A DNA stretch of 64,000 nucleotides from positions 62,001-126,000 of the forward strand of contig JAQXQE010000006.1 in the NCBI GenBank assembly GCA_029101005.1, written 5' to 3'. Below are positions 44,467 through 48,046 of the stretch, one piece after another. Each line of letters opens with the position of its first letter. Positions within the stretch are counted from its first letter, which is position 1. The notes under the pieces are model-generated. The model was not told the DNA's origin and searched no databases. It was given only the letters and a program-made list of their open reading frames with translations. The translations under genes were made by a program, and so were the position numbers. The stretch is from Bacillota bacterium. GTDB taxonomy: Bacteria > Bacillota > Clostridia > Peptostreptococcales > Anaerovoracaceae.

Positions 44467-45831
44467 CTACATATCTTCTTCAGCTACCTTGAGCATGATT
44501 GCACACTCAATACGCTTCTTATGAAGCTCGCAACCGAACTCGTACACCTTGTCGATATCTCCATTAGAATGGAAGTTATTTGCAGCACAACCGCCAGCGC
44601 AGTAGAGCTTAGCCCAGCAGTCCTTACACTTATCTCTTGTGTACATATTGTTACCCTTGCGGAAGTAGTCAAGCACATGCTGCTCAGTGATTCCGTCGTA
44701 GATAGTTCCGACCTTCATGTCATCATCTCCTACGAACTGGTGGCAAGGATAGAGATCACCTGTTGGAGTAACAGCGAGATACTCTGTTCCAACTCCGCAG
44801 CCAGATACTCTCTTATAGATGCATGGACCACCTGTAAGATCTACATTATAGTGGTAGAAATTGAAGCCCTCGCCCTTCTTTCGTCTGTCATACATCTCCA
44901 TAGCGAGCTTCTCATACTGGTCGCAGAGGAATGGAATATCCTCCTCCTTGAGTGCGTATGGCATACTTGGATCGCACACTACAGGCTCGATACTTGTCTC
45001 CTTGAAGCCAAGGTCAGCCATGTGACATACGTCTGTTGCGAAGTCCTTGTTATACGCTGTATATGTTCCTCTCATGTAATATTCCTTCGTTCCTCTCGCA
45101 TCCACGAGTCTCTTGAAGTTGTCCATGATATTGTCGTAAGTTCCATTACCAGTCTTGGACTTTCTCATTCTGTCATGAGTCTCACGTCTTCCGTCCATAC
45201 TGAGAACTACGTTGCCCATCTCCTTGTTGCTGAACTCGATTACGTCATCGTCGATGAGAACACCGTTAGTTGTGAGTGTGAAGTTGAAAATCTTATTGTG
45301 CTCCTTCTCAAGCTCTCTTCCGTATGCTACGAGCTCCTTGCATACGTCCCAGTTGAGGAGTGGCTCTCCACCGAAGAAATCAACCTCGAGATGCTTACGA
45401 GTACCGGACTCCCTTACGAGATAGTCGAGAGCGGCCTTGCCGACCTCGAGCGGCATAATGCCGCTTTTACCGCTGTACTCGCCCTTACCAGCGAAGCAGT
45501 ACTCGCAGTCCATATTGCAGCCGTGTGCAACGTGCAAGCAGATAGCCTTGAGTACAGACTGCTTCTGCTTGAGGTCGCCAGCAATCTCTTCGTATGGGTC
45601 GATTGAGAAAAGAAGACCCAGCTTCTTGAGCTCTTCAATATCCGCGAGAGTCTCCTCCACATCGGCAGCTGTCACGTCATACTTCGCTATGATTGCAGCA
45701 GTAATTGCCTCCGCGTCAGAATTCTCGTACATTTCGATGATGTCATAAGCAACATCATCTACTGTGTGAACGGCACCGCTGTTTGCATCCATTACGATGT
45801 TATAACCATTTAGTTTGTACTGATGAATCAT
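44467..45831 (-). CDS. scfB: thioether cross-link-forming SCIFF peptide maturase (radical SAM/SPASM)
   Basis: 454 aa; N-terminal RRE-like region, CNMDCEYCFAGKG radical SAM motif, DFFGGEPLLNWD, SPASM CGVGTEYLAVTPTGDLYPCHQFVG..CKDCWAKLYCAGGC; adjacent to SCIFF peptide. Confidence 0.92.
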   Translation of the reverse strand: MIHQYKLNGYNIVMDANSGAVHTVDDVAYDIIEMYENSDAEAITAAIIAKYDVTAADVEETLADIEELKKLGLLFSIDPYEEIAGDLKQKQSVLKAICLHVAHGCNMDCEYCFAGKGEYSGKSGIMPLEVGKAALDYLVRESGTRKHLEVDFFGGEPLLNWDVCKELVAYGRELEKEHNKIFNFTLTTNGVLIDDDVIEFSNKEMGNVVLSMDGRRETHDRMRKSKTGNGTYDNIMDNFKRLVDARGTKEYYMRGTYTAYNKDFATDVCHMADLGFKETSIEPVVCDPSMPYALKEEDIPFLCDQYEKLAMEMYDRRKKGEGFNFYHYNVDLTGGPCIYKRVSGCGVGTEYLAVTPTGDLYPCHQFVGDDDMKVGTIYDGITEQHVLDYFRKGNNMYTRDKCKDCWAKLYCAGGCAANNFHSNGDIDKVYEFGCELHKKRIECAIMLKVAEEDM

Positions 45832-45873: not shown

Positions 45874-45906
45874 TAAAAAAAGCGCCGCTCCCAAGAGCAG
45901 CGCTCC
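45874..45906 (-). terminator. intrinsic terminator between SCIFF peptide and its maturase
   Basis: Minus strand GGAGCGCTGCTCTTGGGAGCGGCGCTTTTTTTATT. Confidence 0.8.
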
Positions 45907-45912
45907 AGATAG

Positions 45913-46062
45913 CTATTTCTCCTTGCTCTGCTCGCAGTGCTGATTAGCTACGCTGCAAGAAGTCTTGCTAGCTGACTGGCATGATGTCTGGCACTCGCCG
46001 CATCCGCCTGTTACTGTTGACTTTGCAAGATTTCTTGTTGAAACTGTCTTAATTCTTGTCAT
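45913..46062 (-). CDS. scfA: SCIFF-type ranthipeptide precursor (49 aa, five-Cys variant)
   Basis: Not in the ORF track. Minus strand ATG at 46062: MTRIKTVSTRNLAKSTVTGGCGECQTSCQSASKTSCSVANQHCEQSKEK*; preceded by GGAGGC RBS. Confidence 0.93.
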   Translation of the reverse strand: MTRIKTVSTRNLAKSTVTGGCGECQTSCQSASKTSCSVANQHCEQSKEK

Positions 46063-46126
46063 AATAATAGCCTCCGTTCTCCTTTATCACATAAAGCATA
46101 ACAATCGAAATGCCTTGTGTCAAATA

Positions 46127-46972: not shown

Positions 46973-48046
46973 TTATCTGAGCCACTCGGCCGCACTTACA
47001 ACGAAGAGCTCAAAGAGTGTGTAGAGCACCAGATAATCATCATCGAAGCTGCAGATTACATTATTCTGCATTACTCCGCCGTGTCCATCGAACACAATGT
47101 TAGGCGAACCGAATACTACAGCCTTACGCTCTCCATCCTTGGTGATGATGTAGTTGGACGCAACATTAGCCTTTCTTACAGCCATGAATGAATCCACTCT
47201 GAACTCACCGTTAACTGTATCAATCAGATATGAATTCTTACCAGTACCCTTGAGGTGCTTGATAGTTCCGAACTTCTCACCGTCTGAGTAGATGTCGTGA
47301 TCAATATCAGTAGCATCCTTGTATTCGGCAACTGTCGCCTCTGTTCTAGCGAACTCCTCTCCCTCGCTGTCATAGAGTGTTACAGAGAGAGGTGGCTTTC
47401 TGATAAAAGTCTTGAGAATCTCGTTGTCGTTGATATCCACGAGATTGTTGTCCTTTGTGTTATGGCGGTAGAACTCATACATATCAAGCTGCGCTGGAGC
47501 GTTTGTTCTTGTTCCATCCACGAAACCAGCTGTCAGCTCAGCAAGATCACCAGTCATTACCGCACTCATAACCTTGAGCGCAGCAAAAACAGAATAGTTC
47601 TTCTGAGTTACCGGCATATCCGAAGTATCCTCGATATTGTCGAGTCTCCAGGCATTAGCCTCGCCGAAGTCAATATTATTAGTTATATTGATGTTTCTGA
47701 AGCAGAAGTTCTTGCCGTCATCAGTGATTACAATAATATCGGTAAAAGCCGATGGGCCGTAGATAATCGCAGGTGCATCCTTGTATATGCCAGCCCAGCA
47801 CTTTCCGAGAGGTGTCTCCATATTCTCAAAGAAGTAGAAGAGCTCATCTAAGCTTCTGCCCTGCTTTGCAATCTTCTTATCATAGAGATTCTTGTCATTA
47901 TATCCACCCTTCTTGCTGTTCGAGAAGATTCCGAATGCGAGCAGAATCATAAGAAAAGAAAGGATGAACTTACCAACAAGTAATGATAGAACAGCCAGGA
48001 AGACCGCAAGCCCTCCGACTATTTTGAATCCTTTATCTTCATTCAT
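46973..48046 (-). CDS. hypothetical membrane-anchored protein
   Basis: 357 aa; two N-terminal hydrophobic segments, RBS GGAGGGTAAATT. Confidence 0.7.
   Translation of the reverse strand: MNEDKGFKIVGGLAVFLAVLSLLVGKFILSFLMILLAFGIFSNSKKGGYNDKNLYDKKIAKQGRSLDELFYFFENMETPLGKCWAGIYKDAPAIIYGPSAFTDIIVITDDGKNFCFRNINITNNIDFGEANAWRLDNIEDTSDMPVTQKNYSVFAALKVMSAVMTGDLAELTAGFVDGTRTNAPAQLDMYEFYRHNTKDNNLVDINDNEILKTFIRKPPLSVTLYDSEGEEFARTEATVAEYKDATDIDHDIYSDGEKFGTIKHLKGTGKNSYLIDTVNGEFRVDSFMAVRKANVASNYIITKDGERKAVVFGSPNIVFDGHGGVMQNNVICSFDDDYLVLYTLFELFVVSAAEWLR

Follow-up and report, generated by a model that had tools for sequence, protein, structure and literature searches.

A SCIFF precursor form with serine at residues 32 and 37 in Anaerovoracaceae-type gut clostridia

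What becomes of a SCIFF peptide when the cysteine that donates its thioether is replaced? Cys32 is the donor in both studied SCIFFs, Tte1186a and CteA (PMC8326336, PMC8172795). The acceptor was reported as Thr37 in two in vitro studies and as Thr34, at C-gamma, by E. coli co-expression (PMC8172795, PMC8326336). The locus described here encodes serine at both 32 and 37. It lies in a 64,000-nucleotide stretch of contig JAQXQE010000006.1 from a Bacillota bacterium of the Anaerovoracaceae, which is referred to as the window.

Results

The SCIFF locus of the window

The following features were identified:

44467..45831, minus strand: scfB, radical SAM/SPASM SCIFF maturase, 454 aa (TIGR03974, 700.6 bits against a cut-off of 425, E=8.7e-211; CteB, 5wgg, E=1.7e-167 across residues 1-451)
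45879..45906, minus strand: terminator-like hairpin between scfA and scfB, 12-bp stem and T-run (sequence)
45913..46062, minus strand: scfA, SCIFF precursor, 49 aa, five Cys, Ser32 and Ser37 (TIGR03973 profile search, 74.8 bits against a cut-off of 50, E=3.6e-21; Pfam SCIFF PF13165, 73.3 bits against a cut-off of 27)
46071..46075, minus strand: ribosome-binding site GGAGG, 8 bases before the scfA ATG (sequence)
46095..46123, minus strand: promoter-like TTGACA-17-TATGCT upstream of scfA (consensus match only)

By homology, the pair is a SCIFF precursor and its maturase. The original prediction had claimed a 49-aa minus-strand SCIFF ORF upstream of the maturase gene, with AGC serine codons at 32 and 37 and five cysteines, and the ORF was found exactly as quoted. 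Its product is MTRIKTVSTRNLAKSTVTGGCGECQTSCQSASKTSCSVANQHCEQSKEK, numbered C21 C24 C28 S32 T34 C36 S37 C43, and both codons are AGC. Since the product has five Cys rather than six and no Cys32 to donate a thioether, classing it as a six-cysteine, Cys32-linked SCIFF would be wrong. One finding that would have undercut the prediction, a canonical second SCIFF, was absent from the window's genome (1.6 Mb, 99.6% complete; search at E<=10).

The gap between scfA and scfB is 81 bases. Hairpins of a similar kind occur between the two genes in 192 of 235 related loci, a recurrence that would fit an abundant short message for the precursor, with part of the transcription continuing into scfB. Two genes upstream of scfA, a 357-aa ORF (46973-48046, minus strand) gave no Pfam match at 1e-4.

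The window ScfB has all three radical SAM cysteines (Cys105/109/112) and complete SPASM clusters, with AuxI at Cys345/363/415 and AuxII at Cys402/405/411/434. The clusters were assigned by matching the Cys spacing to that given for PapB (PMC10470005). These ten cysteines were kept wherever aligned among 120 representative maturases of both S32 and C32 types. Two related families could be set aside: ScfB scored 547 bits against the 855-bit cut-off of the orphan maturase family NF040492 and has an adjacent SCIFF, and it fell under the PapB family cut-off (274.5 vs 340 bits). In close pairs of S32 maturases, pN (~0.08-0.12) is far below pS (~0.7-0.9), which indicates that the S32-type maturase is under purifying selection.

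Distribution of the S32 form

The state is not peculiar to this genome, as might have been supposed from one locus. SCIFF was detected in 43 of 47 genomes of the window's genus, and all 30 precursors extracted from the genus search were S32, one with A37 replacing S37. The S32 type also occurs in Baileyella intestinalis, a species cultured from the pig gut. A core match was found in 110 of 150 genomes of the family sample, where S32/S37 made up 31 of 113 matches, corresponding to 30 genomes as read from the listing. In the order sample (249 genomes), every match outside the window's own family, among the matches listed, was C32. The class sample contained the SCIFF core in 297 of 392 genomes. 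A non-TNN codon at 32 was present in four of the 392, two from the window's family and two from a second family, f74, in a search run at zero mismatches that misses TCN serine codons at 32. Since the S32 maturases of f74 are placed among those of the window's family while other f74 genomes carry C32/T37, the scfA-scfB pair was probably moved to f74 as a unit by horizontal transfer.

Thirty-six genomes of the family gave no SCIFF pattern match, and 34 of these also had no maturase; therefore, the peptide and its enzyme are retained or lost as a pair. Of the remaining two, one contained an ordinary C32/G37 precursor cut by a contig edge and the other a partial maturase. This search of the 36 genomes, made for SCIFFs in a more decayed state, yielded none.

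Several loci depart from the one-precursor arrangement. One genome has two SCIFF loci (L211, L212), of which one is S32/S37 and the other is C32/T37 on a 2.1-kb contig, where contamination is possible. Another has two S32 loci (L219, L220), each with its own maturase. In L090, L129, L192, and L245, from several families, two SCIFF cores of the C32/G37 type are fused in a single ORF. A C32/G37 precursor and an annotated maturase are also found on a Bacillus mycoides plasmid (NZ_CP136375.1, 2501-4133), and precursor matches occur on 18 other Bacillus plasmid records (B. cereus-group plasmids), suggesting transfer from clostridia. Of the plasmid records with a SCIFF match, 13 of 20 were predicted to be conjugative.

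States of residues 32 and 37

Across 209 distinct precursor genes, only three combinations of residues 32 and 37 were found: S/S or S/A (73 genes, one with A37), C/G (62), and C/T (74). No other pairing was seen, so the alignment check proposed in the original prediction, whether 37 varies with 32, returned joint change in every case. The same prediction had treated Thr37 as nearly invariant, which does not hold, given 62 Gly37 genes vs 74 with Thr37.

Ser32 is fixed in 73 of 73 distinct S32-type genes, always as AGC or AGT, and every S37 gene uses AGY at codon 37. A single base change would therefore turn either codon into TGY (Cys), ACY (Thr), or GGY (Gly). Thr34 is invariant in all 209 genes. 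Apart from 32, residues 28-35 show no variation in this set while their codons vary freely, and within the 73 S32-type genes codons 21-35 vary synonymously with the amino acids held constant. Cys21, Cys24, and Cys28 are likewise invariant (209/209), as is Cys43 wherever the gene is complete.

Cys36 was lost in two S32 lineages (L214; L091 and L215), both with full-length maturases, and in no C32 gene. The precursors of these three loci have Ser at 32, 36, and 37, leaving the core Cys21/24/28/43 plus a leader Cys. As evidence on donors, this loss is weak (2/31 S32 vs 0/82 C32 family matches, p ~0.07).

Evolution of the S32 form

The 120-maturase tree has the C32/T37 types on one side and C32/G37 as one clade, with S32 branching basally in the wider clade that includes C32/G37. 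A tree of 74 maturases places C32/G37 within an S32 grade. S32 was recovered as a single clade in 0 of 200 bootstrap trees of the 74 maturases, while the AU test leaves a single S32 clade unrejected (p=0.37). On these trees, C32/G37 looks nested inside S32. If S32 is a grade, this would mean the order C32/T37, then S32/S37, then C32/G37.

Under either topology, the changes at 32 and 37 fall within shared intervals of the tree. The original prediction had preferred covariation to random decay. The joint change and the lack of decay agree with it, but the tree has room for no more than one or two joint switches, and for this reason the phylogeny-corrected test is not significant (two independent pairs, sign test p=0.5). 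Covariation of 32 and 37 is thus suggestive.

Search for an S32-specific maturase residue

Co-divergence of the maturase was one option raised in the original prediction. Among ~450 maturase columns, only position 347, two residues past AuxI Cys345, divided the S32 from the C32 types: Val was present at all 109 S32 loci and at none of the 129 C32 loci (238 loci). A class-wide search for the Val347 pattern, set as a test, matched the four S32 genomes of that sample and five others. The five extra maturases belong with ordinary C32/T37 precursors, in three families and in lineages far from S32. This rules out Val347 as an S32-specific substrate switch; at best it would be permissive. Across the 238 loci and ~450 columns, followed by the class-wide test, no residue of the maturase proved specific to S32, which leaves co-divergence with no specific support.

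A separate position, residue 437 of the maturase in window numbering, lies three past AuxII Cys434 and differs among the types in the aligned sample. It is Phe in 37 of 37 aligned G37-type maturases and Glu in most T37 types, and nearly all S37 types have His or Gln.

Discussion

Judged from the sequences, S32/S37 is an old, lineage-wide, selected form of SCIFF in Anaerovoracaceae-type gut clostridia, inherited along with an intact maturase. Loss of the published Cys32 thioether in S32 SCIFFs is near certain, because with no sulfur at 32 it cannot form. Retention of function in these SCIFFs is very probable. The original prediction spoke of a change at both ends of the bond. This is right for the donor, where 32 is Ser, but the acceptor is disputed between Thr37 and Thr34, and Thr34 is unchanged here.

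Across the surveyed genes residue 37 can be Thr, Gly, Ser, or Ala, but Thr34 never varies, which favours Thr34 as the general acceptor. In about a third of the sampled genes residue 37 is Gly, which lacks any side-chain carbon to which a C-beta or C-gamma link could be made. With residue 37 so variable, a side-chain link of the kind in the Thr37 result cannot apply to the whole family.

The reading to which we incline, though only slightly, is that of a selected S32 form without the Cys32 thioether, in which the maturase either relocates the link, most likely to Cys28, or performs other radical chemistry. As the conserved clusters and the sequence suggest, the S32-type maturase would still act on ScfA. 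It would then move the link to another invariant Cys or make a different radical modification. With relocation, the donor would be Cys28 and the acceptor would lie within 32-37, Thr34 being the first candidate. Cys28 is favoured because it is invariant, sits one Cys-X3 register upstream of 32, and is kept in the S32 lineages that lack Cys36. The sequences do not single it out from Cys21, Cys24, or Cys43, and this exact donor and acceptor assignment is a doubtful one. A broader proposal is tentative and a little short of an even prospect: S32-type maturases may differ chemically from CteB, forming a thioether from another Cys (Cys28 favoured) or a thioether-free modification, with a switch that accompanied 32 and 37 and possibly reverted in C32/G37.

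The main rival to a relocated link is that S32 SCIFFs carry no thioether and that the maturase makes another radical modification, for example at Ser32 or Ser37, or carries out a partial reaction. SPASM relatives oxidise Ser or Cys side chains, and anaerobic sulfatase maturases, which are such relatives, match ScfB at E=4e-13. Ser is fixed at both 32 and 37, and Cys36 is dispensable in S32 lineages only, as would fit this explanation. However, every AuxI and AuxII cysteine is as in the thioether-forming CteB and PapB, and overall we rate it as rather unlikely. In PapB, the AuxI (AC1) cluster binds the substrate thiol (PMC10470005). The PapB substrate-scope paper mentions no Ser donors.

It is less probable still that the essential function of SCIFF is independent of the cross-link, with Cys21/24/28/43 binding a metal, for example, and that the S32 lineage dropped the link. 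The persistence of these four residues, even in the lineages left with four core cysteines, would be expected under such a function. The maturase, however, has been retained without decay in S32 lineages, and the paired absence of enzyme and peptide from SCIFF-less genomes also stands against it. Sequencing error, decay, or a pseudogene in this single genome, conceivable when codon AGC is one base from TGC, is refuted by the 73 distinct S32-type genes from many independent assemblies, and the original view that this is not decay is upheld.

We take S32/S37 to be a variant that has gone undescribed. It is not described in the open-access literature searched; the primary SCIFF papers were outside that scope, and an earlier mention is possible. 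A paper on the curated family states that clear homologs of ScfA all seem to be equivalent in function (PMC5300114). The accessible part of a pig-isolate study describing Baileyella gives the SCIFF motif in all precursors and leaves the Ser32 form unremarked (PMC7738495). Because the S32 lineage replaced Cys32 and yet keeps peptide and enzyme under selection, it offers a natural test of whether this widespread peptide exists for the sake of its Cys32 link. Automatic labels such as 'six-cysteine' and 'thioether cross-link-forming' over-state what is known of the S32 pair, and the invariance of Thr34 bears on the published conflict between Thr37 and Thr34.

Comparison with known systems

The closest characterised systems are CteA/CteB (thermocellin, Clostridium thermocellum; PDB 5wgg/5why) and Tte1186a/Tte1186, which share with the window the precursor family, the core, an adjacent maturase, and the cluster cysteines. 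They differ in that Cys32 is the donor and Thr37 (in vitro) or Thr34 (co-expression) the acceptor, whereas the window has Ser32 and Ser37 and retains Thr34 alone. The C32/G37 SCIFFs of gut clostridia and B. cereus-group plasmids have the maturases nearest by tree and a core that is alike except at 32 and 37, but they keep Cys32 and have Gly37. PapA/PapB (freyrasin) is a ranthipeptide with a SPASM enzyme, in which the precursor differs from SCIFF by its Cys-X3-Asp links.
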